Positions 12,225 to 63,991 of a stretch of 64,000 bases of DNA are shown here, one piece after another. Position numbers and translations under genes: made by a program. The DNA comes from Porpolomopsis calyptriformis (taxonomy: Eukaryota; Basidiomycota; Agaricomycetes; Agaricales; Hygrophoraceae). Below the pieces are notes generated by a model. It ran no database searches and was not told the DNA's origin. It saw nothing but the letters and a program-made list of their open reading frames with translations. Each line of letters begins with the position of its first letter. Within the stretch, counting starts at the first letter, position 1. The DNA is taken from NCBI GenBank assembly GCA_951640195.1, contig OX621169.1, positions 1-64,000 of the forward strand. The letters run 5' to 3'.

Positions 12225-12515
12225 GGGCATCCCAATACAATCAGTTTTTAATTTACTAACCCATAAATTAAAAAAATTGGCGGTCCCATTCTTGAGATAT
12301 ATGTAAAATACTCCATTTATACCATTATGCAGCCCAGCTATTGTATTGCACTCTATAAATCGCAATTTCATATCCATTCGATAGGCACAGTGAACTAATG
12401 GTGAGCCCACCAAAAATTCCGATTTTTAGAGCATTTGGTATGTCGTGGTGGAAGATGGTAAGGTTTTAGGAGGAAGTATAAGTATAAGTAGCTATAGACT
12501 GCTCTAAAAATCAGG
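12225..12515 (+). repeat. Left terminal inverted repeat of the giant element
   Basis: Reverse-complement partner of 63705-63991. Aligned by eye, the two copies differ by an indel near 12245-12255 and about ten substitutions. The outermost 20 bases are identical. Confidence 0.85.
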
Positions 12516-13384
12516 GTTTTATATTCAATCGATAGCCCCAGTGTCATAGAGGTAGGGAATACAACAATCCCGATTTATGGACCATTTGGGGTACCGCAAT
12601 CAGTTATATAAGGGGTATGGGGGGGGATATCTCCAACTTATCACAGAGGTCCTTAAAAATCAGGATTTCATGTTCAATCGATAGTGCTAGTGTCACAGAT
12701 ACTGGGAATACAAAAATCCTGATTTATAGACCATTTGGGGTACCGCAATAAGCTATATAAGGGGTATGGAGGGGTATATCTCCAACTTATCACAGAGGTC
12801 TTTAAAAATCGGGATTTCATGTTCAATCGATAGCAGTAGTGTCATAGAGGCTCGGAATAACAAAATCCTGATTTATAGGCAGAATAAGGTACCGCAATAA
12901 GCCATATAAGGGGTATGGGGGGTATATCTCCAACTTATCACAGAGCTCTTTAAAAATCTGGGTTTTATATTCAATCAATAGCCCCAGTGTCATAGAGGTG
13001 GGGAATACAAAATTCCTGAGTTATGGACTATTTGGGGTACTGCAATCAGTTATATAAGGGGTATGGGAGGGGTATATCTCCAACTTATTACAGACATCTT
13101 TAAACATTACAATTTCATGTTCAATCAATAGCACCAGTGTCGTAGATGCTTGGAATAACAATATATGGATAGAATAAGGTACTCCAATAAGTTATATAAA
13201 GGGTATGAGGGACTATATCTCCAACTTATCACAGACCTCTTTAAACATCACAATTTCATGTTCAAACAATAGCACCAGTGTTATAGATGCTCGGAATGAC
13301 AATATATGGACAGAATGAGGCACAGCAATAAACTATATAAGGGGTATGGGGGGGTATATCTCTAACTTATCACAGAGCTCTTTA
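12516..13384 (+). repeat. Left subterminal tandem array, 6 units of about 147 bp
   Basis: The landmark TTCAATC or its variants recurs at 12524, 12673, 12822, 12970, 13120 and 13261, a spacing of 141-150 bp. Each unit also carries a TATATAAGGGGTATG-like box followed by a G run, and an ATCTCCAACTTAT box. Units are diverged, more so towards the interior. No coding capacity is seen. Confidence 0.85.
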
Positions 13385-13694
13385 CAGCTGTTTGCACATG
13401 GCTTGACACACTTTTCCGTGGATTTGAAAAAAGAAAAGAGTCGACTCAGTGCTATTATGACTGATTATTAATCATTTAAATACAACTGTTAGGCTGTTGT
13501 ACCAAGATCAGGCTTAATGGCAACCTCAAGCTTGTCGGAAGACGATTCAATGTCACCAGGATCAAGCACACTGTTGGGTGGTACCATTAAGGTGATGAGC
13601 AATGTTAAGAGTTACAGTAAGAGATTGTACAAGTTATGGCTGGTCGACTTTTCTTAAATCTCCGGACAAGTGTCAAGCCATGTGCAAATGGCTG
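13385..13694. mobile_element. Tc1/mariner internal-deletion derivative (MITE), copy 1
   Basis: It is flanked by TA (13383-13384 and 13695-13696). Ends read CAGCTGTTTGCACATGGCTT and the inverted counterpart ...CCATGTGCAAATGGCTG, matching the full element at 16329-19182. The interior keeps only the left end joined to the start of that element's minus-strand gene (codons beginning MVPPNSVLDPGDIESSS). It is therefore a direct internal deletion of the autonomous copy. It has no transposase. Confidence 0.85.
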
Positions 13695-13925
13695 TAATCC
13701 TAATCTACCTGTAGTTAAATGGAATCGGATCATCTATTTACTCGGCTCGACTGGCCTGGGTCTCTTTCATCTGACTACCAGAGTCTACTGCTGGTTACCT
13801 GAGTTGAGCTCACGCCACGTTGAGTCGACCAAGTTGAACGGTGTTGTCACTACCCGCCTCTGAAACACAGTGACTAGCACTTCGTAGAGATTTGTTGAAC
13901 TCTATTTCGGGGACCGCCTTGTGAC
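13695..13925. repeat. Segment duplicated at 26591-26825
   Basis: This sequence and 26591-26825 match almost base for base (for example CTCGACTGGCCTGGGTCTCT against CTTGACTGGCCTGGGTCTCT). Both copies directly follow a Tc1-derived MITE, so MITE and flank were copied as one block of about 540 bp. No coding sense was found. Confidence 0.75.
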
Positions 13926-13979
13926 AGTCACCTCACATGGGTGTGACAGTCACTCAACTCACGTGGGTGTGACTCCATA

Positions 13980-15240
13980 TTAGAACCAGTCAACTGCTTC
14001 CTGCACAGCGTATTTCTTGAAAATATGACAAGGGCAAATATGGGCAGATTTGTGTAAATTCTGAGACATGACCACAATTTGATGAGAACTTGCTGCATCA
14101 GGAATACAGTATAACTGGAGCACATTCCCGTCAATACAAAATATGACGAGAAGAATATATCCCAGCTGAGGGAGTAAGCATTTTCTGGCATGCGTAACCT
14201 CATTAATGGACGCGCCCATAGTGACGCGTATACCAGGTATTGCCCTTGGAATACCTCTCGGTGCTGACTAGTCATGCCTGCCGATATCCCACACTGATAC
14301 GAACCAAAATATACCTTAGATGCACCAGATTGGTGAACTTCCTTGTTTGACGGTGGTGACACTGGTACATGATTGGATGAGCATCAGTTCTCCGTAGATA
14401 TTGGTCCGTGCACCCGTACATAAATACTCGTCGTTACCTTGTACTTCCTCACGTGTTTGCCTCACGAGCTCAACGAGGTCCAAGCCGTTCCAACACATGA
14501 TACCATATTCCTTTTGTTCTTTCACAATGTTGATAGTTTCCGCAAGGAGTGCCATCCGATATCATTGAACAGCGTAAATTACAAGATATGTCTACCAGGA
14601 CCCGAGGTCAAGGTCTTAACTGATGAGATCTCCTCCAAGCGTCGCAGGAGTGGTTGACGGTGTAGGCCCATTCCAGGCCTCTCTAGAATGACAGTGTGAA
14701 GATCTACAGCCTCTGTAAGCCTGTTAAGCCTCCACCGAGACCAGAAATCATAATGATGATTCTCGTTAATCCAGCAGGGTATCCCTTACATGCAGATCAC
14801 CGAGTCACATATATATGGTTGCACTCCCAAGCAACTACCAACATATACGTCATTTTCCTGATGTAATGTGAGGAGGGAGTGCTGTACCACCGAAAGGATT
14901 CATGCCTCGACGGGCACGGCGGGCAGCACGTTGAGCGAAAAGTAGTACACGGTCGTTCGTATTGCCATTCGAGTCTTCCAGATTCGTCACTGCCAGGACT
15001 GCCGGAAGCGTCGCACGCACACCAAATAAGAATTGATTGTCAGTCAGGCTACAAGTATGGGAGTACGCATAATAACTATTTATCCCACCAGGTCAAGGTA
15101 TCTGTGGCCCATTCTTGATCGTCCAAGTCTAATGACACCGGATCTGGTTCGAAAAGTTGTAATATTGCATGATGGAAACATACCAGATCAAAATTGCCGC
15201 CGTTAAGTCCCCACACTTCAATGGTACTCAGAAGGAAGCG
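13980..15240 (-). pseudogene. Remnant of an unrecognised multi-exon gene
   Basis: Several minus-strand stretches look like old exons separated by short introns. One near 14880-15010 reads NDRVLLFAQRAARRARRGMN. Another at about 14316-14555 contains WNGLDLVELVRQTREEVQGN and EYLCTGARTNIYG. A third at about 13980-14219 contains HKSAHICPCHIFKKYAVQEA. No stretch can be joined into one open frame and I do not recognise the family. Part of the middle exon recurs at 19855-19978 on the other strand. Confidence 0.35.
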
Positions 15241-16459
15241 AGCCTGTGATTAATCTGTGTTATTCTCGTCGAGTCTCGGTTACCAAAATGGACCTGCACT
15301 GCCGCATAAGCATTGGTGTCTGGGGTAACTTTCGTCATGTTATGCAACTTGGCGTTTCCAGAGGGTGTCGCATTCGATCCTGGTACATCCTTGAGTGTGG
15401 AAGATGGTGGGGTAAAAATGTGTCTGACTTTACTTTACAGGCCACAGACATGAGGCGATATAGCACCAGGGGTGGGGCCACGCCATTTCCAGGCAAAAAG
15501 TTTAATCCAGTCCCAGCACCACGGGGCCAGCAAACTCCCCGCTTTGCGCATGGACAATCTTTACAAAAATCAATTGCCAAGGAAGCGTCTTTTTTTCGAA
15601 AACGGGCGGCATGGTTAAAAGATTTTTTAGACCAACCTGAGAGTGAGTAGTCATAATGTATCCATTTCACTATTCTTATATGACTAGATACCATTGTATG
15701 CAAAGGAGTGAGGCTTTCCGACCTTCACCTACGCACCATCACAAGCCAGGTTTCAGCCTTTGCAGAGAAGCGCTTCCACGATATGCAAGCATCCAATATC
15801 ATTCCCTGGGGTATGTCGCGGCGGTGGGTCGAAGATGTTGGCGAGGATCCTGAATGGTTAGTGATATATGCCTCAGAGCGAGTGAAAGATGGTCGTATAG
15901 TCAGGGATGGGTTTTATGTGTGTTCATTGCATTTCAATAACATCATTCACTCATTGAAATGTGGTTATTTAGGAAAATGAAGCTCAATTCGTCTGGGAGG
16001 CCACTCAAAAACTGTTTTCTGAAATTCAGCCTGTTTGTCCAGCTCTGGGTGGGGATAAGAGACATCTGGAAAGCGCTCTCTACCCACTAATGGACTTTGA
16101 TGTCCTTGAAGAAGAGGACAATATTGTACATTCATGTAAGCTCAACTAGGATTCAAGAGTTGAACATTGATATTTTGAAGCAGCATCACTTCTCCAGACC
16201 AATGTTGGCACATGTTTAGACATCACTGATGGTCATGAGCCTGTTGGATTACACCACGACATTCAAGCATGGTACGAGTTAGGACATAGGGTGTGTCATA
16301 AACTTATTTATTTACATGATTTGTTTTACAGCCGTTTGCACATGGCTTGACACTATTCCGCGGATTTGAAAAAAGAAAAGAAGTCGACTCAATACTGTTA
16401 TGACCGATTATTAATCATTTAAATACAACTTTTAGGCTGCCGTTCACGACTCTGTTGTA

Positions 16460-17517
16460 ATGCCCTATTGAAAAATTAGTTCGGATGTAAAGCTCGCAGC
16501 CGTCAGGCTCCATGATCTCAATCTGCTTGACCTCGAGACCATTCTGCATATTGTTGGGTTCTCTCGCAGCACCTACTTTCGTGTTCTAAAGCTTTGGCAC
16601 GAAACTGGCGACGTTACTATCCACAGATTGAAACTTGGACGGCCTCGGCTTCTCCACAAGAGCGATGTTGATTATCTGATCTGTCTTGTGCACCACCGGC
16701 CTCACTGGTTCCTTGACGAGCTCCTAGCTCTTCTCAAAACCAATCGATTCATTTCTGTTCACTATACAACCATCTTCCGAGAGCTGACTCGCATGGGTAT
16801 GTCTTTGAAGAAGCTGAAGAAAATTGCACAAGAGCGGAACGAGAATGCTAGAGCCGACTTCATTGCAAGGATGGCCCAGTATGAGCCTGAGGAGTTGGGC
16901 TTCATCAATGAAACTTCCAAAGATGAACGAACACTCTCACGTCGGAGAGGTAGATCAAAGAGGGGGGCTAGGGCTGAGGCAAGGGAGGTTTTTGTTCGAG
17001 GAATCCATCTCAGTGCAGTAGGCCTTCTCACAATTGATGGCATGACGGCAAGTACTGTTGTTCAAGGCTCAATGATGAAAGCAGGATTCCTACAATTTCT
17101 TGAATTTACAGTGGTACGTTTCAGCCATTTTTGCAAAGATACAACTCATTTATTGTAACAGATACCACACTGTGTTCCCCATAGCAACCTCCATGTGCTT
17201 GTAATGGATAATGCAAAAATCCATTGAGGCCCTGAAATCCTAGAGTTGCTTGATCGTTTTGGTGGGTTTCCCACCTACATAAATGAACCCATGCCAATCA
17301 ACTCACAGGAATCCAGCTGGAGTACTTGCCGCCATACTCGCCAGATTTGAATCCAATTGAGGAGGCCTTTTCAAAAATCAAAGCATTCATTCGTCACAAC
17401 CAAGATATTTTTACAGCTTCAACAGAATTTGGTATAATGTATGATATGTATGAGGCTATGGATGTTATCTTGCCATCCGACGCAGCTGGTTATTTCATTC
17501 ACAGTGGTTACTTTTAG
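16460..17517 (+). pseudogene. Tc1/mariner (IS630-type DDE) transposase, inactive
   Basis: Product: cut-and-paste transposase. It has an N-terminal helix-turn-helix region (SSDVKLAAVRLHDLN, then FSRSTYFRVLKLW) and a DDE domain. Introns are at 17114-17161 and 17262-17308. The second acidic residue is seen in LVMDNAKIH and the third in LPPYSPDLNPIEEAFSKIKA, the family hallmark. Several defects show it is dead. The fourth codon is TGA (16469-16471) where relatives have Arg. A second TGA follows DNAKIH (17225-17227). The first catalytic Asp is replaced by Asn (AAT at 16907-16909, in GFINETSKDERT). All can be read as C-to-T or G-to-A changes. The deletion derivatives must have been mobilised by another copy. 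Confidence 0.85.
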
Positions 17518-17585
17518 TTTTGAATGCTATAAACTGTTAGGCAATTCTATTGACTGTATCTGCAAATAATACGGACGTCTAAGTA

Positions 17586-19054
17586 TTATGACAATGCCCA
17601 CGAAGCAACAGCATGTTTCAGCTCTGCAATCTCCCCACTTTTGAATCCCATCTCCTTTAGTTCACTTATCTCAGTGTAAGCAAAGGTATGTGTTCCCGAG
17701 TACCCATTTGCGACAAGTCGGTCTTGAATAGCTTCGGAAAGTGAGTAGTTGTCGCAGAAGTCAGTTATTGTCATTTTTGGTCTAGATGGATTTGCAACAG
17801 AGATGAGCAGTGGTGATTGAGAAACAGTTGAAGAAGGAACAGCATTGGGTGCAGGTGCGACATGAGACAAAAGTCCGAAGAGAGCGTCAGGAATAGAGAA
17901 ATGGTTGTGAATTTGCATGGGTGCAGAAACGGCCTGATCTTTTGCTACAGCTTGTTGACGGCGTTGATGAAGAAGTGATTTGGGGCCAAGACTGTCTGGA
18001 GACAAGACGTCGAATGCTTTATGGTTTGGAGGTTTATCAATTGTTGCACTCCCGTCATCCTTAAGCTTTAGGTGAATGGGTTAGTGTTGCCAACTCGAGT
18101 GATTACTTCACGACTCACCAAGGCAGAAGCCCAGACCTCAAAGTGAGTCATGCTTAGAGGGAAATGCTCAGGGTTGTCAGCCGGCACATAGCAGTGATCA
18201 CTTGAGCAGTTGCGTGTATTGCAAGCCCATCAATTCCTAAGAAACTGGATCTTTTCGTTTCGGGCTACATTCCCTGGCAATATTTTATCGGGTTTCTATA
18301 TATTATAAATACTATTAGCATCAAAATGGTAGCGAAACACTCACTTTTTTCTTTTTCTTTTTTGGCCGGTCATCATCAGTATCGGTGTTCTCTTTCTCAC
18401 TGTCGGTACCCCTCTTTCTATTCTTTCTGCCATGCTAGTTGACGCCTTGCCATTTAGTATAATAACTATAGATGTTACGCAACATACCTTAAGATCAGAT
18501 GTCTTCTCTGTAATAGTGACGTTCACAATCGGATCTTTTGCTTTGAGGGCTCGCTCGACAAGAAAGCTGTAATTGTTATGATGAAGATTCATGGCATTTG
18601 GAGCATGACGAGGGACTGAGAAGGAGACATCGTAATCTTCAAAACTGAGGTTTTCTGGGTGATAATACGCATCAATCTTGACAAGTAGTTGGGCCTTGAC
18701 CATGTCCCAAGGATCGGCAGATGAGAGTTTCAGAAAATCGTTATGGGGTACACGTTTGCGAGCTAGTTTCTTCATTTCTTTTGCATGAAACAGGGAGAGA
18801 TTGTAGGTGATTTTCAAAGGAGAGGTTGCATCTAATTACTTTGATATGGTTATATTTGTGTTTGGATGTAGCAAGGACATACTTTCATTATGCTTTCCAA
18901 CCTCCTTTTCCTTCGGCATCTTGAGTTTTGGCGGAACCGTCAGTGTGAGCAAAGGATCAGGTAGCGTGCCTAGATCAGGCTTGATGGCAGCTTCAAGCTC
19001 ATCAGAAGACGATTCGATGTCGCCAGGATCAAGCACACTATTGGGTGGTGCCAT
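17586..19054 (-). CDS. Accessory gene of the Tc1/mariner element, unknown function
   Basis: A multi-exon gene on the strand opposite the transposase. It starts MAPPNSVLDPGDIESSSDEL (ATG ending at 19054, or an in-frame Met at 19069). An intron near 18837-18890 leads to KITYNLSLFHAKEMKKLARK and SADPWDMVKAQLLVKIDAYY. Later come a Lys/Arg-rich stretch (GQKRKRKK) and a C-terminal exon at 17586-18005. That exon ends in a helical region (SLSEAIQDRLVANGYSG, ELKEMGFKSGEIAELKHAVA), which could be a SAM- or UBA-like fold. I do not recognise the family. Its conserved start also survives in both deletion derivatives. Exon borders in the middle are uncertain. Confidence 0.55.
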
Positions 19055-19789
19055 TAGGGCAATGAGCAATGTTAAGAGTTACGGTAAGAGATTGCGTGAG
19101 TAGTAATTAAAGTTATGGCTAGTCAACTTCTTTTTCTTTTTTCAAATCTGCGGAATAGTGTCAAGCCATGTGCAAACGGCTGTAATCTGTCTCTTTCAGC
19201 ATGATAACCCTATCCCCTCTTCTGACCTTATTGGCAATCATTCAGCCCGAAAATCAAAAAATCACACGTCACTACTTGCAGGCAACTGAGAAGCAAACGA
19301 ACTACCTTGACAAGCTACTAGAAAAATTAGCACCAAAGGAGTGGAACCGCTTAAAACGTACTTATAAAGCAGGTCGTTGGTACCAGGACCTCAATGAATC
19401 CTGCTTTTTTGGACTCGCAACTATTTGGAAGCTTCAGGTTGATGTGCACATCGACCACAACGATTTTGAATTGAGCGTGATCACTTGTGCCGGCAAGTTT
19501 AATGGGGGACATCTTTATTTGCCGGACTTGGATTTGTGCTTAGCGTGAGGTGTTTTGTTCATGTATGTACCATTTTTGAACTAACTGCTGAGCTAGATAT
19601 AAGGCTGGAGATATTGTTATTCTGAGGTCTCCATACTTGTTCCATGGAGTTGGGCGCTGGGAACCTGGCCCCATGTTGTCCACCAATACATGCACTCCTG
19701 GGCGTATCGCGTGGGTCCATTTTAGCCACCAAGATGTCGTTCGATTCTTAGATGAGAAGCCCGAAGACTACATGATTCGGCTAGGCTAG

Positions 19790-20472
19790 GTTAATTATAC
19801 CCCGAATGAACTTGGGTTCCTATTTCTTCAACATGATGTGCACCTTGTTGGGGAAACGGTTTGTACCTCATTGAGCTTGTGAGGCAAACACGTGAGGAAG
19901 TACAAGGTAACGACGAGTATTTATGTACGGGTGCACGGACCAATATCTATGGAGCGCTGACACTCATCCAAAAACCAACACACCTCCCTACCCACCGATG
20001 GAGACTCCAACCAAGACGCAGCGCACAAGCAGATGGATGATACCACATTTCTTTCTTTGCTCTTTTCTGTTGCATTTATCCATTCTATAGCCAGCATAGA
20101 TACTTAAAGGAGGTTAAATGCAAAGAGGTTCAGACCTCTTGGATGAGGGATGGAGTGACGCACACAAGAGTCTCTGACCAGACCAAGGAACTGCGCGGAA
20201 AAGCCTACACAGGTCTGGCGAAACAGCTAGGTGCTCAACCAGCAGGCTGTGGTCAATGAGTCATTTTACACTTCTAAATCATTCAGGTGTAGCAAGGACC
20301 AAGCGCTAGAAGACAGGCCTTTAGCCAGTATGGAGAGGCAGATAGGTGCCGATCACCCCTCCTCCCATCCTAATGAACAACCTCGTGGATGTATAAGTCA
20401 TAAGGGGCTATGATTGCAGTGACAGGTTCTATTCGGTAAGGTACTATGTTACTAGGACCTCCTCAAACTTTT
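19790..20472. other. Non-coding stretch with a copied gene fragment
   Basis: No gene was found. Bases 19855-19978 match, inverted, the exon piece at about 14384-14505 (shared run includes GAGGAAGTACAAGGTAACGA). The rest is unassigned. Confidence 0.5.
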
Positions 20473-21097
20473 TCACCAAGTCAAGTGTATGCAGAATCTT
20501 GTCCAATCAGACACTTTACAGACAGTCATCACCAGTTTGAGGATATTTCTGTTGTCCCCATTGGAAAAGCGAAGAACCTCAGGATGTCCTCTCGTGTAAC
20601 AGGGACTGTCTCTACTGTTGTTGGTGAACACATCAACAATGGCGAGTTGCTCAGGCCTGGTATGCGGTAGTTTGACTATGGTATGATTCCGAATCGAAGT
20701 TGGATGTGATGTGAGGCTCTGGGATTGTATCGGACATCGAGGCATGTATGTTAGATGAAGTTATTTCGAGGCTAACCCTCACAACTGTCTACAGACGTGT
20801 GTATTGTATGGATTGACGCTTATGGGGAGCAACATGGTAGAGTCTACAAAATGTGGTACGCTCTGGATCCATCCTTCTGATAACCACGCCTATTTGACGT
20901 GAAGTGGATTTCTTTCTTGCTTGGTAATTGGCAGTAAAAACGCCATTTGCCTTGGGTAAAATCCATCTTGAAGCCCCACCATGTGGTTGACATCGGACGT
21001 TGACATATGCGAAAAGCGTATTCTGAAACAATATGGCATCAGAGCTTTCTGCATACACGAAGTCGACAAATTCAGGATCAGACGATGGCACTAACAC
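20473..21097 (-). pseudogene. Unrecognised gene fragment, two exons
   Basis: The first exon (20789-21097) reads PSSDPEFVDFVYAESSDAIL, then GGASRWILPKANGVFTANYQ and RQIGVVIRRMDPERTTFCRL. The second (20473-20745) contains HTIVKLPHTRPEQLAIVDVF and HPEVLRFSNGDNRNILKLV. Sentence-like composition and a plausible intron suggest former coding sequence. There is no start, no diagnostic motif and no family I can name. Confidence 0.35.
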
Positions 21098-21220
21098 GTG
21101 ACTGTCACATTCGGTGGCTGTTACTTTCGGTGACTATCTTCGCCCTTCATGAAATTTTCAATATTTGTTCTTCTACTTTAACTAGTGTCCCAGAGTCTAT
21201 GATATTTTAATGTCCTCTTG

Positions 21221-24200
21221 ATGTTTTCCTCCGCTTCTACACCCTCTGCTTCATCTTTGACCTCATCACCGATGAATACAAACTTGAAGCTTTCTCAGTT
21301 TCGTGCATTCCAAGACTTCCCATGGCGTCATGGCCTACCCCTTTCCCCACGTCAACTTGGGGAAGAGTTTATGCAACTAATGGGGCCAGAAGAATTGGAG
21401 AGGAACTCCGGTGCAGCAGACTTGCTTCTAGTAAGTCATTGCTCTCTGAATTGTATTATACTATCAATGACCCTCATGCCACTTCCACTTTACATAGATG
21501 CTCTGCCATGAGCTCAACAACAGGGCTATCCCTGAAACTCTGACCCCAAACCAGATCGTGTTCTTACAACAATACTTCGCATCAGACAGCAGTAGTCTGA
21601 GGGAAGCCAACCGTTGGTCTAAGAAGCATCCCAGGGATGTATTTCTTGCAGCCCACATGCTGCTCCGCTACAGTCTTCTCGATCGCTTGGTGGACAGTAT
21701 TTCCCCCACCCCCTCAAGCTGTTTGGTGCACAGGCCAAGGTGTTCAAGACCCAACATAACTGAGAGATTGCAGAGTGTAAGTACAATTTATATGGGTTAT
21801 TACAACTGATAGATGCATGTATATTTTAGCTCATCCGACCTATCGAAGATTGGGTTACACTTATTGAAGATGCCATGTCCGCATTAAGCGAGCTCCCTGT
21901 CGCAGAGTCTAAAGTCTCATCACAAAGCCCGTTTGAGACCGGCGTTCCAAAAGACTTGTCCCTCAGACAACGCCATCTCGTCTGTGGAATCAAAGCACTA
22001 CATCGTGCAGCTGGGCACATGAGCACAGCAGCTGTGAGTGAAATCCTCACTAACGTAGAACTCATGGCTTTTGCAATCACTTGGTTCAGCAAGGTAACTT
22101 TCTTTGACTATAAAGGAGATCTATCCTTGCGGCTAATGCTTCATTTTTCTTCCATAGCCTCAAACTGCATTCAACATCAATGCTAAGTTATGGAACCAAC
22201 AGCTGGAAAGGTGTGTATAGCACACATCATCTAAGGATGATTCTGATACCCCTTTTCAGCATGGCAGTTAATATGCAAGCTCCGCTATCCCCGATGTTCA
22301 GGGATATGCTCTCCAGAAATTCTAAGGCTCTTTACGAACGCATGCAGAGCATATTCCATCTCACAACCTCCATCTCACCCCTCCTTGTTTTCCTCCCTCA
22401 CAGCCTTAGCAGGGCAGAAGTTAGTCGTGACCAACTTGTTGCGGTAAGCTCGTTTGGCGATCAATTACTCACTTATTTATTGATTTCGTCCAGCTGACAT
22501 TTTCTTTGGGTAATGAGCATCCCCAATTCCTCGCGAACACAGAGAGAGCACTCTGGCACTCTTTTATTTCGATTGCAACCGGGTTAACTGCTATGGACGC
22601 CATCATTGGATTTTTCTCTCAATTTTCAGCTACTTCCCATCAAACCCAATTTAATGATGCAGACCGCTATTGGTTCCATTTGCCCGGTATGTCTCCTTCT
22701 ACTATTTCTTGATTTACCACTCATTACCTTCCTCTAGTTGATTTTATCTCTGATCTTCCAGTGGGGGCCCACTCATTGGCATTCCCACTCACAGCTAGGC
22801 AACCACTGGCGATATCCTATGAGCTAGCCGAGAACGAGTCTCAGGGATCAGGAGAGAGGTCCTCATAGCAAGATGGGGAGGAACCAGTAGTACTTCCGGC
22901 TCAGGAGCCAGGAGAAATTGAGGAAGGGGTAGCGAAAGAGGTAGCGAAGGAGGTAGCGAAAGAGGTAGCAAAAGATGTGCCGGAAGAGATAGTGAAAGAT
23001 GTGGGGGAAGAGATAGTGAAAGACACGGGGGAAGAGGTAGTGAAAGATGTGGGGGAAGAGATAACGAAAGATGTGGGGGAAGAGACTGAAATACGTGGGG
23101 AAAGGGAGGGTGGGATCAATGCGGAGAGCACAGAAGGGGGTAGAATGAGAGAGCAAAGGGAGGGTGGAATTGATAAGGAACTAGTGGGGGGTGAAACAAA
23201 CAAGGAAAGAGAGGATGAATCGAGCGAGGACGAGGGCAAATCAAGTGAGGACGAGGAGGAACGAGTTAGTAATGAATTGGAAGGGAAGGATGATGTAGAC
23301 GACGAAGGGGAGGATGAAGTAAACAAGGAAAAGGAGGAAGAATTTGGTGAGAAGCGGGTGGAGGAGAATGAACCGGGCCAGAAAAGTAAGCTTGGTATCA
23401 TAAATGATACCAGTGATTTACCAGTTTTCAGAGAGAGAACGCATCAGGAAACAGGAAATCCAACGGAAACAGTCGCAGCCCATGGAGAAGTCTTCCTTCC
23501 AGGTCTCATCTAGCCGAATCCAGCGCCCACCTCCAAAGCTAAAGAGATGGCATGGTTCAGCTCCCAACCCAAAAACTAGGTTCAGACCTACATCGCCAGA
23601 TAATGAACTTCCCCATAAAAAGGACAGAGGCAAAGACCCCTCAACGACGCTCCTCCTAGCTAAAAAGAAAAATATCATCTCGGCTACTACGCCGCTAGAA
23701 ACAGCTACCAGCCAGTTTGGGGAAAGAGTGAGTACTAGATGAGAAAACCTTGTTCTTCATTTTCAAAGATGATCACAGGATCTGAAATTGAAAAAACTCT
23801 CTACCCTCCCACTCCCAGAGGTATTGTTCCCTGCTCCCAGCCTTGTTATATCTTGGCTGACAATAGTCATAGTTGGTCGCTAACCCCATCAAAGTCCCCA
23901 TCTATGATGCTTACCCAGAGAATGACCCAGAGATCTTTGAATATCGACCACCTGTCAAAGTGGTGAGTGACTTTCTTTGTGTCTAGGCTGTTAACTGATA
24001 GCTAGCTGGTATAGGCAGAAATCGAAGGCGCTTTCTTGAATAGGGTTCACAACCTCATCCAAAAAAGCTATGTCGACGGCATTCCCATGCACCGTCTTCA
24101 CTCTTCCCACCTTGCGAAGTTCGACCCAAAGGCATCTTGTATCTTTGTGACAGAGTACGAGGATTTTGTGAAGCTATCTGCCACTGAGGTCCAAAGGATA

Positions 24201-26089: not shown

Positions 26090-26169
26090 AATTATATACT
26101 GGGTAGTTTCTCTAGTATTTTCAAACATCAATTGTACCATAGACAACTATATGTACTGTATTATTATTA

Positions 26170-32658: not shown

Positions 32659-32659
32659 G

Positions 32660-40587: not shown

Positions 40588-40589
40588 TG

Positions 40590-42025: not shown

Positions 42026-42120
42026 TGTGTGTCATGTGAGTCTAAGTTGAAGCCCACTGTGAGTTGCAAAGTCGTCAAGTACTACCCATTCTTAAAGTGA
42101 AATGCCTGTGAGAGGAACCC

Positions 42121-50690: not shown

Positions 50691-50780
50691 GAAGTAAAGT
50701 AGTCGTGCTTATTCTGGGTGAGGGGTGCTGATGTTATGCGTTATCTTCTTCTTCATAAGGATGATGCAATGCGAATAACT

Positions 50781-53183: not shown

Positions 53184-53728
53184 GAACACATCATTTGGTT
53201 CCAAGGGTAGTTACATTTGGGGGTGGGTGGATAACTGCATGAAAACAAGATAATCAGCATAAAATTTATCTAGATGTGGTGAAAAAATAAGCATTCATTC
53301 AATCGCATGCATATAGCCATTGTGGTGCTGGAAGTAGTTTCGTGTGTGAGTCACAGCTCTTGATCACTACTTAGGCTCCTCACACATCACTTCATAGCAC
53401 ATCACTTCATAAGTACATAACAGCTAGTTGATATTCACGCATACACAGACAAGATAGCTGGGAGTTAATCAATACAGTATCAAAGTAACTTGATATGTTA
53501 TGTGTGACATCACATTTGCATACCAAAATGGGATGGGAGTGGCGCATGTGAACTTGCTAATTTACACCTGCACACAGCTCAACATGTCTACACAGGTTTA
53601 GCACAAATCGTATGTAGTAGACTTATATAGTAACTAGCTTGGAATGCAGCAATACAAGTTGATTAATATTTGTGGAAAGTTTGATGTGACATGCATGCAG
53701 CGTAATAGATGCTAATTCAGTAATTTTA
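53184..53728. other. Intergenic, no feature seen
   Basis: A short direct repeat (CACATCACTTCATA, twice near 53,382-53,411) is the only structure noticed. Confidence 0.5.
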
Positions 53729-54879
53729 TCAAGACCATAACCTCCATGATGGTCTGTAGTTAAGCTTTCTGTCTCCATAGAGAACCTGAACCTGAGTGTG
53801 GTTGCTTTCGAGCATTTCACCTGACGCAATCATCTCCTCCATCCTTTTCAATGCCAACCATGCAAACTCTTCACAGTCCATGTCTATCCAAGCGTTGAAT
53901 ATACCAGCCCACATAGCTGTGTTTGTAAAGGTATTATTGAGATATATAACTTGAGGCGATACTTGTAAACTGGATTTGGGGGAATTTTTTGCTAAGATTC
54001 TAGCGGACTGCTTGATAAAGTCAGTAGTACCCTTCACTTTCAAGCTAGTGCCAACCACAAGGAGAAGATCTAGTTGGCGACTGGGGGTGGTAGTTAACCC
54101 AAGATCATTTTGCTGCACGTTTGCTATTTCTTCTCCTCGAGGATGTGGTTCTCCGTAAAGAATGATATTGGGTCGGAGTCGAGGCACAGTCGTTCTGCGT
54201 TTGCCCTGCTCTACCCTCTTTTCCATATTGATTTGACATTCAGTGCATTCTGGTAGTTGGCCCTCTTTCAAAGAGGGGTAGTATGGTTCGAGGATAAAAA
54301 TGGAGGAGCAGCCAGGGCATCGTAGTTCCTCTAGGGATCCATGCAATGGAATGCATCGGGCTGGTCCATCACTGGGGTGAATTTCTGAGGACATATGTAA
54401 CCCAGCCTTGAGCTCCAAACCATCGATATTTTGAGTGTAAACACGGAGTAACACTCCTTGGAGGTCTAGAGCACGAAGGAAATGGTGGAAGGCAGTGGGT
54501 TGTGCGATCGCCGCTTTCTCAGCAAGGGTGGCAATGAGCTGACAATGCAGTGATTGTTGCTTTTGGGTCTAGAACATTAACTTGGTCAACTAATCCTCAC
54601 TTGAACATATATTTCTCACTACGAGGGATGAGCTAGTAAGCAGATCAGTCAGGTTGACTCCGGTAAATCCAGATAGTGCGTTGCCAGTATATAAGCCATC
54701 TGGTCCTCTAAAACATGGAATACCTGCAGCCACGGATATTCCTGCTCCTAGAGAGTAGGTAAGTATTTGAATGAAACATGATGATGGGTCGATTTACCAC
54801 AGAGCACGACGATTCTCTTTGCTTTCAGTATTCCATCCATTAGATCTGTTGCACTTTGTTTTATAGTGGAGGGGAACAT
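53729..54879 (-). CDS. Sirtuin (Sir2 family NAD-dependent protein deacylase)
   Basis: Removes acyl groups from lysines, typically on histones, using NAD. The gene runs from MFPSTIKQSATDLMDGIL (ATG ending at 54879) through short introns. NAD-binding GAGISVAAGIPCFRGPDGLY is interrupted by an intron after the Cys-Gly of VVLCG. Next come LRVYTQNIDGLELKAGL, the catalytic His in CIPLHGSLEELRCPGC, two Cys pairs for zinc (CPGC and CTEC), RLRPNIILYGEPHPRGEEI and LLVVGTSLKVKG. At about 330 residues it has the length of a compact Hst/SIRT protein without long extensions. Every hallmark residue I looked for is present and no stop interrupts the last 241 codons, so it is probably functional. It is divergently placed beside the BAH-PHD gene's 3' end, same strand. 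Confidence 0.85.
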
Positions 54880-54951
54880 AATAGCTGAGTTTTTAGCAGT
54901 AACACGGTGAAGGATAGTAGGTATTAGATAAGCTAGAAGAATGGTAAGGTA

Positions 54952-56317
54952 TCAAATAAGCAAATCTGAGCTACACCGAGGGCAAGTATAGTATGTTTGG
55001 TCTGTAACGACTAATGGCTCATAAGAGTCTGTGTTATCTATGCCGAATTCTGCCTCAAGCCAGTTTTCCCAGTCAGTGTCTATCATATTTAACCGAGACT
55101 CCTCAATGAGGTGAGCAGCTATCCATCCAGAGGCTTGGACGACACTGCGTTCCTGTGAAGAAAGCAACTTTCTAGCCTTGTTCACGATCCTAATATTTCC
55201 GGCTGTAAAATAAGTGAGACCTCCCCTAGCTGTGGGTTGGAAAGCAACTTGAAGTATAATTTTTGGGGTGTCGGCAAACTTCTCTATAGCATAGAGATTG
55301 TTAAGATACTGCTGCTGGGTAATGTTGGCAGGGGTTCCTAGGCAAGTAAGATGGGACCATCTTTTGCAGGACCAGCAGTAGCGTTGTTCCTCTGTATCGG
55401 GGGACCAAAGTGAATAACAGTGAGTTGCGCCACATATTTCTGGCTCGCCCTACCACCCAATAGATTACTACAGGGTATATGTTTAGTTCAATGAATGCAC
55501 CTTCAATGCCTGCCTATGCCCATCCCAGAAGTATCTAATAGAAATTTTAGTATAATAGATGGGTTGGTATTATCGTCAAGCTTACCGCATGTAATACGCG
55601 GTTACTGGAGGTTGATCTTCAATCTGATTTTTAATAATAACAATGTCGATTGTATCTACAGTTTAATTTTCAGTTCAGTTCAGTTCATTCTTTTATATCT
55701 GCTTCTCGATATAATAACCCTCACCTTCCAAGGCTTGCGCATCAATGATATCTGTAGAATCAGAGCCACACAGCTCTTGCTTTCCAAATGTGTTTATATA
55801 CCTGTCAAGAGTAAGAAGAACATAGAGTGACAGGAGAAGGAGTAGGTTTTGAGATGCAACCTTTTAGTATCAGCCTTAACATCACTTCTCTCCAACAACT
55901 GCTTGGCTGTATACATCCATGAAACCTTAGCAAGATACTTGTTCTAAAGCACATTGTCAACATTGGGTAGGGTAGCTTGAGCAGGTGTATCACCTTAGTA
56001 GTTTTTCTTATTTGTAGGATCAAACCTTTCCAGTAGTCGTCCATTATAATATTATTTTCTTCCTTTGCATGGAGGCCAAGGTGACGGATGAGGCAGCTGT
56101 GTTTGAGGGAAATAATCAAATGACTACTATTCAAGCATTATCGATAAACACTTACAAGTCATTCTTAACGAATTTGCAAGGAGAGCCTATAAAGTTTTGA
56201 TTCGGAACAAATAGAACAAGGCATAGGTGATATCTCACCATCATTTGGATTAGGAACCTCGAGGTATTCTACGACTTTTGCAGATTTCCATTGTTTTTCC
56301 TCGGTTGTAGGTGCCAT
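54952..56317 (-). CDS. BAH-like plus PHD-like zinc-finger chromatin protein
   Basis: The start is MAPTTEEKQWKSAKVVEYLE (ATG ending at 56317). Two short introns lead to SPCKFVKNDFCLIRHLGLHA and EENNIIMDDYWK, then LAKVSWMYTAKQLLERSDVK and IDIVIIKNQIEDQPPVTAYY. This order is typical of the BAH domain of basidiomycete BAH-PHD proteins (opening Asp-Asp-Tyr-Trp, then the VSWMYTA strand). The C-terminal exon reads CGATHCYSLWSPDTEEQRYC, WSCKRWSHLTCLGTP and finally YYTCPRCSSDLLI, a PHD-like set of Cys and His. One TAG (in the frame of LPNVDNVL, about 55,930) stands just before the VSWMYTA exon. An intron there would remove it, so I cannot say whether the gene is damaged. Predicted role: nucleosome or histone-tail binding. 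Confidence 0.55.
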
Positions 56318-56446
56318 AATAATAAATCTACGGACCAATGTTGATTATTCGTATTATATTCCCACAGCTATATATATGTCACGTGAATGTAGATACACTT
56401 TGTCTCGACTATTGCACAAACATAGCTCTCGATCTTAACCTCCAAT

Positions 56447-59400
56447 ATGGCAAACCAGGCAAATGAAGGTGCAGATTATGACAGTGATATAGATAGGATC
56501 ATAGCTATGTCCTCACTAGCCAAGGTAAGCCTATCCCTAGTAGTTATGTATCTAATTCGATTCACACAATTAAATCATTACGAGGCTAATAAAACCATAA
56601 TAAACCAGGAAGGGGATTCGACTTCTAGTGGTTCAGATGATAGTGATATACGTAATATCCTGAATATGCCTTGTGCAGAGAAGATGCCAATGCCAATACC
56701 GATGCTAGGAGAAAAACATATGCCTTCCAAAAAACATATATTAATCAACAAAAAGCCAGTATACTCAGTAAGTGTATATCTGTTTTCAAGGTTAAAGTGC
56801 TCACATTATTACAGACAATGTTAATTAGCCTAAATCATCTTAACATCCAGAATTCGGATCAGCAATATATATCGATACCTCCATTGGCTCCCTTAGGTCC
56901 CCAGCCAGGTCCTTCAAGGGTCCAAAACGCAATAAGTAGAAAGGATAATGACGCTGTATGTCTCAATTAACCTATGACAATAATAACTTACATTTATTTA
57001 TTTTCCAGGTGGCGAAAGCATGGTATGTATTTTAAGAGAAATCATAAGATACTTGCGTATTAATACTGGTTAGGTTTAGTGATTATAGCTCTCCTTCAGA
57101 GCCTTCGGTGGATATTAGAAGGAACAACTCGCGATTTGAAACCAGACACTGGTGAATAAATCTATCATTCGAAATGTTAGGTTAAATACTAAACTTTTAG
57201 AAGCTCAACAAGCCGATCATCATCGCCAGCTAGCAATAACGGATCAGATTTCATTGGATCCAGTGAAAGTGACAGCGCTCATTCTCATTTACTAGCAAAA
57301 AATGCCATTCGATTGAATCTACCACGATCTGAGCAAGAGCTTTTTATAGGTATGTTCTTATATTATTGGTGGTGATTAGACTCATTAAGGATATTAGACA
57401 CGAAGCTAGCAGATCCAAGGATATGGGCTTCAGCTTGTCAATCATTGGGATCTGCTAAGCCTGGAAACCACCTGGATCATGCGGTCATAGAAATTTACCT
57501 TTTGAAATCATGGTATATGTCCATTCAACCCCAGATGCCATCTCAGAGATATTCCTACTATCTAGACTCGGAAACGGTGAGCAGGGTAATAAGAGAAGAA
57601 GAAGACATCCTGTCTACCGAAATCCATAAAACTCTCCTTCTTCCACCTCACGTTGCTATCCCGAAAAAGCCTGTGTTATTTTTCCCTCCACTATCATGGC
57701 AATCTTCTGCAACCCAAAGGCTAGCTTTATTTGATTACCAGCAGGAGAAGGTTCTTGTTTTTAGCCATGGAGCTCCACTCAAAACCAATATGTACTCAGA
57801 TTGGACGGAGTGGAATGGCAACTACTATTGGAGGGCTATTGCTAATGTGTTTGGGTGGATCCTGGGTAGTGAGTTGGATGAGCGAGGTCCCCAAGTAATC
57901 GAACCGAATTGGAATACGGTGAAAATCTCGTTTCTATACAGAAGAAGCATATTCATATACATATTTCAACAGAGTGAGGCCGACACTGGTTCCTGGATGG
58001 CATCGCTTTGCCAAGAAATCTTTGATAATGGTTGGATGTATTCCACAGACATTAACCAACACCCACTTGCACCCAAATTGCAATGTGTTCATGCGATGCG
58101 AGAGAGAATATTTCTCACTGCGCTTCAAACTGTACAAAAATCATATGACTTCTGGAACAAGACTCAGACCCTGCTTCGGTATTCCATGGAACCCAATTCT
58201 GAGGTTGTGAATGATATGAAGGCTGGGCTTTTAAAATTCAAGCGTTTCGAGGTAATAGCACTTGCGCTTGCAACTGCTCGTATGAAGTGTGAGTATTATC
58301 TCATTCCGATTACCTGTGATAATCAATCTAAAGAGGCTACCTATATTAATCAACTAGGCCATCTTCTGGATAGTCACGACAAGGATGGCAATGCCAGCAA
58401 TGACGACAACAATCACAATGATGATGACAATGACAATAACAATGATGACAACGATGATGATTCCATTGTAATCAACCTACCACCTCAGCCTTCCAGAAGG
58501 TCTCTACCTGAAATCCAACTTCCAGAGGTTGAGCTAAATGGGAATGGGGGTGAAGAAGCATTAGCAACAAGCGTTGATGAGCGGCCTTTTGATGACTACG
58601 AATCAGCTATGTTGGTTTGCTCCGAGGATCAAGCTGATATCATTCCAAACACGTGGACCTTTGACACCAATGGAATGCTTGTATTGGGCAAGCACTGGAG
58701 TATCTGGAGGGATAGAGGCTATAGGTTGCAGGCCGATTTTTTCTCTATGTTCAATAACCAGGAACCGGTTCTCCTCAATGACCACCTTCTTCCACACTGG
58801 GATTCAAGTGATCAAGCAAGTGGATGTTTACCATCATCTCCAGTTGCATACCCATCCTCGTTATCTTCTCATTCTTCTGAGGTGCTGAATTCCCTACCAG
58901 CTATGGACAACCCAGATGTGACTGTGATGGGTGCTCAGGATATGTTGGATGAGGCGGGAGGGGTGGAAGGGACATCAGAGAGCCAGGGTGTGTTTGTAAA
59001 AGGTAAAGCACGCAACAACAAATTCATCTACTTCGACTTGGAGAAGGATAGAGTAAACCTGGACGATGAAGAAGTGTCAGTGTCGGTGGATATCGACAGC
59101 GTCATATGGGTCACGCATAAACCACAGTTCATTGGTCCAATCAATATTCACCTTCTTCCACTGTTAGACGACAAACCTCCATTCTCTATCAACAATCATG
59201 TCTATGTCCAGGTTCTACAACCACCTACCACTCGAAATCCTAGGCAGAGGTCTAAAAGGTATCCACTTAGTGCCTTGCCACATACCCATTTCGGGCAGAT
59301 GGGTCAAGGATCAGGCCAATTTAACACCTACGTCTTCTTCCCTCGTATGATTAGGAAAGACCCAGGAACGCATAGAATGACTACTCTGATGCCAAGGGAG

Positions 59401-61814
59401 GTACAGGAGTTGTGGTTCTCACAAGTGATCATGCCTGCTCTGCCAGTGGTTTTAGCCAACTACACCGGAATTATGGAGTATCTTCCTACAAGCATCAGTA
59501 ATCTCCAATGGAAAATAGGGACAAGACGTACGACCAAGACCATTCCCCTCACACCTGAAGCATTTTCTTCCATGCGAACCACTCTCTGCGACATCATAAA
59601 TAACCAGCCCGATCTCCTAGGCCGATTCGGGTCCTTTTTCTTTGTTGTAGATGCTCGAGGTATCAAACTGCTCTCTAAGCAGCACCACCCAACCGAGAAT
59701 ATATATCAGGCACTCTGTTCGATGATTCCTAACATGGACTGGGATTATATGAAGGACCGATCGCATGGAGAACTCTTGCTTGATCTTGGGATTTCATACC
59801 ATCCTCCTTCTAGGGAGGATCAGGAGCCATTGGTAGGGCTGTGGAGGTTAGATAGGATCGACGACTCGTACGACCTTATGGGGATGAAAAAAGGAATGAC
59901 CCATTATACTGCCATGTTTGGAGCTTATGGAGGGAGACAGGCTGAAACCAAGTTGAAGAAAAGTCGGCTTGTACACCTTTGCTTCCGATCCAGCTACAAC
60001 CTTTGCTTTGAGGTGGTGCGACTTCCTGGCCAAACGAACTACCTATGTGATGACTGTGATGCAGTCAAGACAAATGACCGATTCATGACTAGCTGTGATC
60101 ACTGGAAAAAGCTGTTTCAATCTTCTCAAATCCAGTTATTCGGCGTTAGAGAAGAAGTTAGAGGGAGTGGGTTAGCCATTATAAAGCTTCTTGATGTAGC
60201 ATCTGAAAAGGTAAGCAGCGAAATAACTGCAAACTAGAAATGTCTAATGATTGCCAGGCACAAGACTATATGTCATCTGACCCTATCATTTGGATCAAGT
60301 CGAGCCTCTTTTTCAAGTTGTTGGCAAGAAGGCTAGCAGAGTTTCAAAACGTCCAACTACACCTTTCACGAAATCGACCAAGCAACTATGGAATGATGGC
60401 TACGCTTATCATCCACCTGATTAAGCACACCATGGTCACGCCAAGGATAAAGCACACATTCTTGAATGATGTGTTGCGAGACCTTCGTTTCAGTTCGATA
60501 ATGTGGAGGTTCGGAATGTTCTTTCTTCACGACCTCAAGTTGAAGAAAGGAGTGCTATCTCTAAGAGAACTACCGGAGGAGGATCCAGCTGAGGTTATCC
60601 AAGCGTATGGACAGTCCTTGAAGAAGCCACAGGCAACTCAAGCCAACCAGCCATATCACCTTATTCAAATGTATCAGCAAGATGCGTGCCCTTGGGGTCC
60701 TGATCCATCTTGGTCAAGAATTCAGAAACTGTTGGAAACCGAGCCAGAGATTTTCCTTAGGGAATGGAGGTTGGATGATGACTGGGAAGCTCCTGAACTG
60801 CTTTACACAAAGCTGTTGTTTGTTGAGTTCACGCATCAGCTGTGGCTAAGTCTGGCAGAGCAGTTTGCATCAGCAGGTGTTTTACCCAAGCCAACCACAG
60901 TTCAGGAAGCAATGGAGACTTGGACGGTACCTGCGATTCAGCATATCATAGGCATTGACCATTGCCGATTCCTTCCTTCGAGCTGTGGCCTTAAAGGAAA
61001 GCTTCCTTTGAGTCACTCCCATGATCTATCATTTTCAGCACGTCGGGCAACCTTCTTCCCTGAACAAACTATCCAGATCCCAGAGAATTCAGTCTGGAAA
61101 CCATACACCCAGCCTGGAGGATATATCTCCACTTACCACCAATATCTTGTGGATTGGGATATGGATGAAGGTGATCAGCTCTGCCGTGAATTGGACAATA
61201 TATTTGGCCAGTTACAATGCCTTCCTGTAGGTGGCCTATTGAATAAAAAGGGGAAACAAGTCATATGGGGGATGAAATCAGGCAAGATCAACTTTATTTC
61301 GAATTCAAAGTTCTATCGGATTGAAGAAATTGGGAAAGAGGTGGCTGCGCGTCCACGAACTCAGGTCCTAAAAAGGCCTCATGCTTCAAAGAATATACTT
61401 CAGAGACGACTAGATGAAACCTTGGGGAGATCGATAAAACCACCTATTCGGAGCCGAAAGTCTGCCAAAATCTACCAAAAACGAAAGCCTCCTGTGAGAC
61501 GGAAAGCAGACAACAATCCTTCAGGTTCAGAGAGTGGGAAAGAGCAACAGGTTAGGGTTACTCGCTCAAAGGCCAAGGCTGCCCAGAAAGACGAGGGAAG
61601 AAAGGGGGTGAGTGGTGTGCGGATAACTCGGTCAAGAATGAACGCTGCTAGGAAAGATGCGGAGAGAGAAGATTCAGGTCCAGGAAGACATATAGTAGGT
61701 AGATCTCAGTCAAGAGTCAAGGCTGCTAGGGAACGGGCAGATTTAGAGTCTGATTCCGATTCCGATTCATTAGAGTACACAGATGAGCCAGGATCAGAGC
61801 AATCTAGTAGCTAA
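56447..61814 (+). CDS. Very large open protein of unknown family beside the right terminus; candidate mobility gene
   Basis: Small 5' exons start at MANQANEGADYDSDIDRIIA (56447) and are Ser/Asp-rich. Two long open exons follow: 57,400-60,210 (930-codon ORF) and 60,257-61,814 (524-codon ORF), joined in frame by an intron at about 60211-60256. Total roughly 1,650 residues. Visible features: YSDWTEWNGNYYWRAIANVF near 57,800, an Asp/Asn-rich linker (58,380-58,465), LPHTHFGQMGQGSGQFNTYV near 59,285, and clustered cysteines (TNYLCDDCDAVK, then FMTSCDHWKK) near 60,045. The basic C-terminus has three related units (VRVTRSKAKAAQKD, VRITRSRMNAARKD, QSRVKAARERAD), suggesting DNA binding. I do not recognise the family, nor an assured DDE triad or tyrosine-recombinase signature. 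Being open amid decayed cargo, and ending about 60 bp before the terminal array, suggests it serves the element. Confidence 0.75.
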
Positions 61815-61864
61815 TGTATTGATTTGAAGATTATATATTCACAGGTCTATTCTACCTATATGTG

Positions 61865-63704
61865 TTACACTGCTCATTGTGGTACCCCAATCAGTCTGCC
61901 CATGGGGATGTGGTTATTCTGGGATGTTATCACACTAATGCTATTGATTGAACATAACATGCTGGTGGTTAGAGAGCTCGGTGAGAAGTTGAAGGTATAA
62001 CCTCTGATACCTCTTGCATGCTAATTATGGTACCCCAATTATTCCGCACATGAGGATTGGACTACTCCTGATGTTTGTAGCACCAATGCTATTGATTGAA
62101 CATAAAATCCTGATGCTTAGAGGGCTCTCTGATAAGTTGAAGGTATACCCTCCCATACCTGTTGTATACTTATTGCGGCACCCTAGTTAATCCACACATG
62201 ATGATTGAACTATTCCTAACCTTTGTAATACTCATGCTATTGATTGAACATAAAATCCTGATACTCGGAGAGCTCTGTGATAAGTTGAAGGTATATCATC
62301 CGATACTTCTTACATACTATACCCCAATCATTCCACACATGAGGATTAGACTACTCCTGACCTTTGTAACACTAATGCTGTTGATTTAACATAAAATCCC
62401 GATGATTAGAGAGCTCTCTGATAAGTTAAAGGTATACCACCCCATGATATCTTATATACTTATTGCGGCACCCTAGTCAATCCATACACGAGGATTAGAC
62501 TATTCCCAATGTTTATAACACTGATGCTATTGATTGAACATGAAATCCTGATGCTCAGAGAGCTCTGTGATAACTTGAAGGTATACCCCCCCCTACCTCC
62601 TGTATACTTCTTGCGGCACCCCAGTCTATCTACACATGATGATTGGACTATTCCCAATGTTTGTAACACAGGTGCTATTGATTGAACATGAAATCCTGAT
62701 GCTCAGAGAGCTCTGTGATAAGTTAGAGATATACCCCCCTATACCCCTTATATAGCTTATTGCAGTGCCTCATTCTGTCCATATATTGTCATTCCGAGCA
62801 TCTGTAACACTGGTGCTATTGATTGAACATGAAATTGTGATGTTTAAAGAGGTCTGTGATAAGTTGGAGATATACTCCCCCATACCCCTTATATAGCTTA
62901 TTGCAGTACCTCATTCTGACCATATATTGTTATTCCGAGCATCTATAACACTGGTGCTATTGATTGAACATGAAATTGTGATGTTTAAAGAGGTCTGATA
63001 AGTTGGAGATATACTCCCTCATACCCTTTATATACCTTATTGGAGTGCCTTATTCTACCCATATATTGTTATTCCGAGCATCTATGACACTAGTGCTATT
63101 GATTGAACATGAAATTATGATGTTTAAAGATGTCTGTAATAAGTTGGAGATATACCCCCCCATACCCCTTATATAACTGATTGCAGTACCCCAAATGGTC
63201 TATAACTTAGGATTTTTGTATTCCCCACCTCTATGACACTGGGGCTATTGATTGAATATAAAACCCAGGTTTTTAAAGACCTCTGTAATAAGTTGGAGAT
63301 ATACCCCCCCATACCCCTTATATAGCTTATTGCGGTACCTTATTCTGCCTATACATCAGGATTTTGTTATTCCGAGCCTCTATGACACTACTGCTATCGA
63401 TTGAACATGAAATCCTGATTTTTAAAGAGCTCGTGATAAGTTGGAGATATACCCCCCCATACCCCTTATATAGCTTATTGCGGTACCCCAAATGGTCTAT
63501 AAATCAGGATTTTTGTATTCCCAGTATCTGTGACACTAGTGCTATCGATTGAACATAAAATCCTGATTTTTAAAGAGCTCTGTGATAAGTTGGAGATATA
63601 CCCCCCCATACCCCTTATATCACTGATTGCGGTACCCCAAATGGTCCATAAATCGGGATTTTCGTATTCCCCACCTCTATGACACTGGGGCTATCGATTG
63701 AATA
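61865..63704 (-). repeat. Right subterminal tandem array, 13 units of about 147 bp
   Basis: The landmark TTGATTGAAC or its variants recurs at 61943, 62091, 62239, 62390, 62529, 62677, 62818, 62959, 63099, 63247, 63397, 63545 and 63693, a spacing of 139-151 bp. It is the reverse complement of the left array. Outer units resemble left-array units most; the innermost (61.9-62.6 kb) are most diverged. Confidence 0.85.
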
Positions 63705-63991
63705 TGAAACCCCGATTTTTAGAGCAGTCTATAGCTACTTATACTTATGCCTCCTCCTAAAACCTTACTATCTTCCACCACGACATACCAAATGCTCTAA
63801 AAATCGGAATTTTCTGTAGGCCCACCATTAGTTCACTGTGCCTATCGAATGGACATGAAATTGTGATTTATAGAGTGCAATACAATAGCTGGGCTGCATA
63901 ATGGTATAAATGGAGTATTTTACATATATCTCAAGAATGGGACCGCCGATTTTTTTAATTTATGGCTTAAACTGATTGTATTGGGATGCCC
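63705..63991 (-). repeat. Right terminal inverted repeat of the giant element
   Basis: Reverse complement of 12225-12515. The outermost base is 63991, followed by TA. Homology runs on without a break into the first subterminal units, giving about 400 bp of near-identity in all. Confidence 0.85.

Follow-up and report, generated by a model that had tools for sequence, protein, structure and literature searches.

A giant, mostly subtelomeric multi-gene element with one defined end, probably attached towards telomeres, in the basidiomycete Porpolomopsis calyptriformis

The first 64,000 bases of contig OX621169.1 (contig C7) from the Porpolomopsis calyptriformis assembly GCA_951640195.1, referred to here as the window, contain a gene-rich sequence whose ends recur throughout the genome scanned (33.5 Mb, 17 contigs). 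This sequence is probably part of a giant element of ≥52 kb that carries many genes, is mostly subtelomeric, has a single defined end, is attached towards telomeres and is not moved by cut-and-paste. Its fixed edge occurs as two types, the TTA type, with an extra TTTTTAATTTACTAACCC as at the left edge of the window, and the TCG type, as at the right edge. The window is organised as follows (positions on contigs are given as contig:position):

1..10945, + strand: fused fatty acid synthase (FAS) gene with Pfam FAS domains, cut by the contig start and outside the left edge; delimited here by how far the sequence shared with C8 and C12 extends
11944..12150, + strand: beginning of a dispersed repeat that the left edge interrupts at GCACA^TC; all 8 of the other copies read go on with TCCACAAG
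12151..13384, + strand: left edge, TTA type (TCAGGGACCC... with the insertion), and the 1.23-kb remnant belonging to it, which contains six ~149-bp repeats and runs opposite to the right arm
13385..26834, strand not given: region E, with direct repeats at ~13515-13931 and 26300-26828
16472-17158: weak Tc1/mariner-like DDE_3 stretch inside region E
26835..31338, strand not given: block C, matching C1:108561-114374
31365..46319, strand not given: block B, its orientation reversed compared with the C1 copy and, for part of it, with the C5 copy
31864-32724, - strand: F-box-like coding sequence in block B, below the cut-off
45701-46420, - strand: alpha-kinase coding sequence (Pfam) in block B
46447..64000, - strand: block A, the right arm adjoining the fixed edge, with the edge itself outside the window at C7:64065
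54032..54748, - strand: SIR2-family gene (domain positions 1-179 of 180, 1.5e-26)
57376..61814, + strand: edge gene, a large gene without assigned family, reading towards the fixed edge
61932..63721, + strand: tandemly repeated ~148-bp units, separating the edge gene from the fixed edge
63722..64000, + strand: terminal part of the right (TCG-type) edge, which ends ...GGGTCCCTGA at C7:64065 and is followed by a Ty3-like retrotransposon flank

The two ends in the window are inverted copies of each other, aligning over 1,235 columns (1.23 kb) at 94% identity with a longest ungapped piece of 537 nt at 96%, and carry mirror-image arrays of ~148-bp units (12505-13384, 6.0 copies; 61932-63639, 11.7 copies), much as an earlier note on this DNA, made from the sequence alone, had recognised (with a unit of ~147 bp). 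The outer base that it had assigned, GGGCATCCC at 12225 and 63991, was misplaced, as the copies share identity for a further 74 bp, out to TCAGGGACCCATTA, and the true edge lies at TCAGGGACCC, at position 12151 of the window on the left and at C7:64065, 65 bp past the window, on the right. The TA that it had seen flanking both ends is part of a TTAGGG internal to the copies, and target-site duplications are absent from the window copy (left flank ...TTTTTTGCACA, right flank AGGACTGG...) and from other edge pairs read by eye. The chromodomain of the Ty3-like flank beyond C7:64065 was recognised by eye only. At the end of the left remnant, a short stretch resembling a miniature inverted-repeat transposable element (13385-13695, by eye) has inverted ends and TA on both sides, with a relative near 26.3-26.6 kb.

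A search with the terminal 476 bp found the end genome-wide. Counted with a 26-base pattern near the end (≤3 mismatches; reversed control, 0 matches), there are 104 matches in all, 100 of them listed with a position. The outer flanks of edges in the fetched loci, grouped by their last 25 bases, resolved into 76 distinct junctions among the flanks read, no two alike within 4 of 25 bases. The base just outside the edge was A (n = 41) or T (n = 35) in all 76 junctions (chance ~1.6e-19), and the base at -2 was C in 40. An uninterrupted counterpart (another fetched sequence matching over ≥60 bp at ≥92% and aligned right up to the junction) was found for 33 junctions, continuing with TC in 30 and with TT in 3; none was usable for the remaining 43. 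One more comes from the window's left edge, since the dispersed repeat reads GCACA|TCCACAAG in all 8 other copies, giving TC at 31 and TT at 3 of the 34 uninterrupted targets (background, TC = 6.3% of dinucleotides in the fetched sequence). The element joins at (C/T)(A/T)^TC and shares the TC, or the T, with its target. The earlier proposal of a mobile, gene-rich sequence with a fixed outer base is therefore supported (104 matches, 76 different sequences joined among those read), except for its cut-and-paste movement by terminal inverted repeats. Five junctions (L068, L075, L076, L083, L118) sit within an older edge, and the outer flank of the edge at C9:1195868 is a high-copy repeat.

Edges are oriented unevenly, with 83 of the 100 listed facing the nearest contig end and 17 facing inwards, the latter comprising 7 of the TTA type (the one on C15 by match only), 4 partners of TTA pairs, 2 on the unplaced contig C16 and 4 others. 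Copy number falls with distance from the edge, from 104 edges to 99 copies at ~0.14 kb, at least 48 at ~4–7 kb (48 near-identical edge-gene copies scored of 75 candidates), at least 40 at ~10 kb (40 of 63), 22 copies, near-complete, at ~41 kb (all 26 candidates scored) and 6 at ~50 kb (12 of 12 scored), a series that mixes pattern and BLAST counts of differing sensitivity, in which the values between ~4 and ~10 kb are lower bounds only and the distal values are affected by window-type copies having region E in place of the distal C1 sequence. How far a copy lies from the edge that it faces varies little: 9.8–10.5 kb for 39 of 40 copies in the ~10-kb set (the other at 31 kb), 39.9–42.3 kb for 20 of 22 in the ~41-kb set (the exceptions being one at 63 kb and another, lacking an edge, where a contig begins) and 50.3–50.6 kb for all six in the ~50-kb set. 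Overall, the copies thin colinearly behind the edge and are truncated. One copy on C11 (156.3-180.8 kb), which departs from these distances, holds ~21 kb extra between the edge gene and the SIR2 segment, with no listed edge inside.

All 48 edge-gene copies scored face an edge, 3.6–4.3 kb away, and 97 of 99 34-mers from just inside the edge lie behind a listed edge, the other 2 being beside degenerate edge sequence. Six edges are cut by another edge nearer than 3.6–4.3 kb (C1:203710, C1:307989, C7:2215159, C9:1925143, C10:2027290, C12:133630); since every scored edge-gene copy nevertheless faces an edge, the orphan remainders expected from insertion are not seen, either among the 48 edge-gene copies or among the 99 34-mers. 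No constant second end was noticed, the copies being cut at scattered points, though no pattern search for one was made.

Tandem arrays with one listed edge per unit occur at C5:33-180 kb, C16:17.7-166 kb and C1:96.9-201 kb, with edge spacings of 29,310, 49,281 and 52,014–52,016 bp. At C1 (96801-142800), the unit runs from the edge in the direction of the telomere through block A (64065 to 46447), block B (31365 to 46319) and block C (31338 to 26835), and then through ~12 kb absent from the window. This 46-kb stretch is matched by 18 of 59 flank records, at 13 distinct points besides its own junction, and the scatter of these points indicates that new edges sit on truncated older copies.

Among the 30 contig ends read, one of which belongs to C17 (by its look a mitochondrial contig), 21 match element sequence and 5 carry the telomere repeat. 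At two ends, C6 right and C7 right, the telomere repeat lies directly on the element interior, at different points, and caps the outermost copy; at the other three (C1 right, C12 left, C14 right), the sequence beside the repeat matched none of the reference stretches. Where a contig end lacks the telomere repeat, the reason may be that the assembly broke within repeats. The repeat itself is an irregular mix of TTAGG and TTAGGG (L054, L060, L062, L099, L105). Further, contig C13 starts inside an edge (ATAATGGGTCCCTGA; L055), which suggests an assembly break at the element.

TTA-type edges have an identical outer junction at all nine places read, and these copies are therefore duplications of one locus; the same outer junction also borders a TCG-type edge at C4:126.8 kb and, by flank match, at C9:2005.7 kb. 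The flank shared among TTA-type copies varies from 207 bp up to the whole 3.15 kb tested, a variable length that indicates spread by duplication. Positions 9001-12150 are present whole in nine places, window included, and all 10 near-complete genome matches to the first 1.5 kb of region E lie behind a TTA-type edge. Inverted edges ~52 kb apart are found at C7, C4, C15, C9 (twice) and C1. The two arms at C5:332.5-348 kb abut head-on, the internal point of contact differing between them, so such a pair can consist of two truncated arms joined at their inner sides. At the left edge in the window, 1.23 kb remains of a second attached end, opposite the long right arm, and the window and C5 pairs are probably each two attached ends that were joined, end to end, at their distal sides. 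The first 1.9 kb of 9001-12150 has 99% copies on C8 (1.41 Mb) and C12 (48 kb), which may mark the origin of the FAS gene.

Domain scans covered the 150 longest of 345 open reading frames (ORFs) in the window element and 70 of 91 in the C1 and C5 stretches (25 and 19 Pfam families, respectively), the sequence read ending ~52 kb from an edge. The edge gene has an open frame to 60210 that resumes at 60258, separated by a probable 47-nt intron (60211-60257) predicted from sequence only, and is likely to have more exons upstream. Its two frames, of 953 and 535 aa, had no Pfam match, and its 953-aa exon had no relative among PDB sequences (best E 0.55). Single-sequence structure models of two of its exons were unusable (mean pLDDT 35.9 and 31.5). 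The edge gene, which reads towards and adjoins the fixed end, is the best candidate for a putative joining protein. Scanned ORFs yielded no Penelope-type reverse transcriptase, Rfam scans no hammerhead ribozyme, and the fold of the terminal RNA was not clearly better than that of shuffles (z -0.85). Reverse transcriptase genes are plentiful genome-wide (RVT_1 scan, 150 of 820 candidates scored), and among the listed matches two lie, by eye, within 60 kb behind an edge (C9:1200272, 4 kb; C6:158509, 33 kb), in both cases an old inner edge. Other matches among window ORFs include weak TET/JBP (5.8e-4) and Ulp1-type domains, neither with an exact position located, and a PHD-like stretch below the cut-off. 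Copia-type gag, a different retrotransposon type from HeT-A gag and reverse transcriptase, was found in 3 of 70 C1/C5 ORFs; the ORFs of the distal C1 part and the C5 stretch (L091-L092, L065) include this gag and tetratricopeptide-repeat coding, the exact ORFs not being located.

In the probable course of events for one-ended attachment, the edge (TCAGGGACCC...) is joined to the chromosome at (C/T)(A/T)TC, and the element usually runs from there in the direction of the telomere. A DNA 3' end finishing in WTC may pair through two bases with the terminal ...GGGUCCCUGA-3' of the element, present as RNA or single-stranded DNA, and would then be extended towards the telomere, the distal piece of the chromosome presumably being lost as a rule. 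The new tip would later be truncated and healed by telomerase, and a later copy attaches straight to the truncated stump, producing arrays of the same direction, while homologous exchange between chromosome ends would spread long copies. A junction at YW^TC in which TC is shared agrees with priming by a 3' end that forms two base pairs with the terminal GA; by inspection, the terminal CCCUGA could also base-pair, through a match that includes a single G-U, with the TTAGGG overhang of a telomere. Overall, the anatomy of the element is well supported and is fixed better than the joining enzyme. A more specific proposal can be offered tentatively, namely that this is a class of giant elements able to build chromosome ends with no reverse transcriptase of a known kind, in which the edge-gene protein would attach the fixed terminus at YW^TC to DNA that is broken or nicked and successive copies would replace and extend the ends, with telomerase only capping the tips.

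Several observations weigh against one-ended attachment. The element ORFs scanned contained neither a reverse transcriptase nor a polymerase nor any other enzyme known to carry out such joining, and the edge gene keeps its probable intron and has no family match. Neither poly(A) nor telomere repeats were seen at inner junctions, and at four loci (L016, L075, L107, L118) the counterpart breaks off 2–7 bp before the edge. Among the 100 listed edges 17 face inwards, and four of these (C5:332585, C6:125635, C9:1925014, C9:1925143) are explained neither by TTA pairs nor by an unplaced contig, and some edges lie deep in chromosomes (C1:3418900, C9:1195868, C9:1410050, C11:446 kb). The evidence that the distal piece is lost comes from about six edge pairs stacked close together, with 27 of the 75 edge-gene candidates left unscored, and array order depends on the assembly, as contigs often end within arrays. 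A Rep match with one stop (C4:154930-155424, - strand) also lies between the edges at 126.8 and 218.0 kb.

This last match bears on a rolling-circle origin, which appears rather unlikely. Helitrons begin with TC at the 5' end, finish in CTRR with a hairpin at the 3' end and target A^T or T^T. A Helitron- or Helentron-like element would have its fixed 5' end (TC...) joined at W^T, its transfer would often abort, the chromosome would break and telomerase would heal the tip. Such a start, TC after W, fits the junctions nearly as well as 3'-end priming, since the edge opens with TC after A or T at all 76 and T follows in all 34 uninterrupted counterparts; one-ended growth would account for the thinning copies, and, besides the C4 match, a Rep match at C1:3470968 lies ~52 kb behind the edge at C1:3418900. 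Unlike in Helitrons, however, no Rep-helicase was found in the window or the scanned C1/C5 ORFs (35 Helitron_like_N matches in the genome, none in the window), C follows T at 31 of 34 targets, beyond what a W^T rule needs, and a constant second end was not seen.

The near-identical copies, the tandem units and the co-carried FAS segment demonstrate that exchange between ends happens, as would be expected of an ordinary subtelomeric repeat (like yeast Y') spread by homologous recombination alone and without a joining step, but homologous exchange does not join one exact base to 76 different sequences at WTC, and this explanation is improbable. There is similarly little likelihood that end joining captured, at broken chromosome ends, a linear plasmid or a DNA virus that existed free and had inverted ends. 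The fixed end, large size, inverted pairs and one-ended capture would suit such an origin, yet Pfam scans of element ORFs found no viral or plasmid replication domain, six peptide patterns from the 953-aa exon found no close relative in IMG/VR, and end joining by itself needs no WTC. A two-ended ~52-kb cut-and-paste transposon with terminal inverted repeats, as claimed in the earlier note, would suit the recurrent inverted pairs and the weak DDE_3 and TET/JBP matches, but it is largely refuted and very improbable given the lack of a target-site duplication at the window copy, the 83:17 outward orientation, thinning from one end, one edge per tandem unit, and a TTA-type junction that is the same at 9 of 9 places and also borders the TCG-type edge on C4.

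Telomere-building mobile elements are known mainly as retrotransposons (in flies, rotifers and others), and among the open-access papers listed, no title or abstract opening described such a basidiomycete element. Starships, the giant, cargo-bearing elements of the Pezizomycotina with a tyrosine recombinase captain, are alike in size and cargo, but the scanned ORFs had no Pfam match to a tyrosine recombinase and no two-ended insertion was seen. The Drosophila elements HeT-A, TART and TAHRE form head-to-tail arrays of the same direction with the fixed end centromere-ward, according to passages of PMC5537684. The element described here has the same array direction, a fixed end towards the centromere, distal truncation and a gene reading towards the fixed end; unlike them, it has no such reverse transcriptase or gag in the scanned parts, no poly(A), a size of >50 kb, a probable retained intron and a host with telomerase-type repeats. 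Rotifer Terminons, which involve Athena Penelope-like elements, are described in parts of PMC6431247 as giant, telomere-associated and distally truncated, with many ORFs, head-to-tail arrays and host genes between copies. All of these features have likenesses here, but the parts scanned yielded no reverse transcriptase, and there is neither a hammerhead motif nor a telomere repeat at the inner junction. KDZ elements carry a KDZ transposase and produce a 7–8 bp duplication, according to passages of PMC12730594. The TET-bearing KDZ and Plavaka transposons share with the element a fungal host and, weakly, the TET/JBP match, but the scanned window ORFs matched neither transposase, there is no 7–8 bp duplication, and the element is one-ended.

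If one-ended attachment is correct, it would place chromosome-end addition in a new setting, that of a fungus whose telomere repeat is of the telomerase type but in which 21 of the 30 contig ends read lie inside a giant multi-gene element with a three-base target. The WTC target would offer a sharp, testable joining site, and the element a route for gene multiplication at chromosome ends, for the SIR2-family gene, the kinase gene and, by exchange, the fatty acid synthase gene. Diverged edges inside chromosomes C6, C9 and C11 (L089, L090, L069, L116) suggest that the family is not new in this genome.

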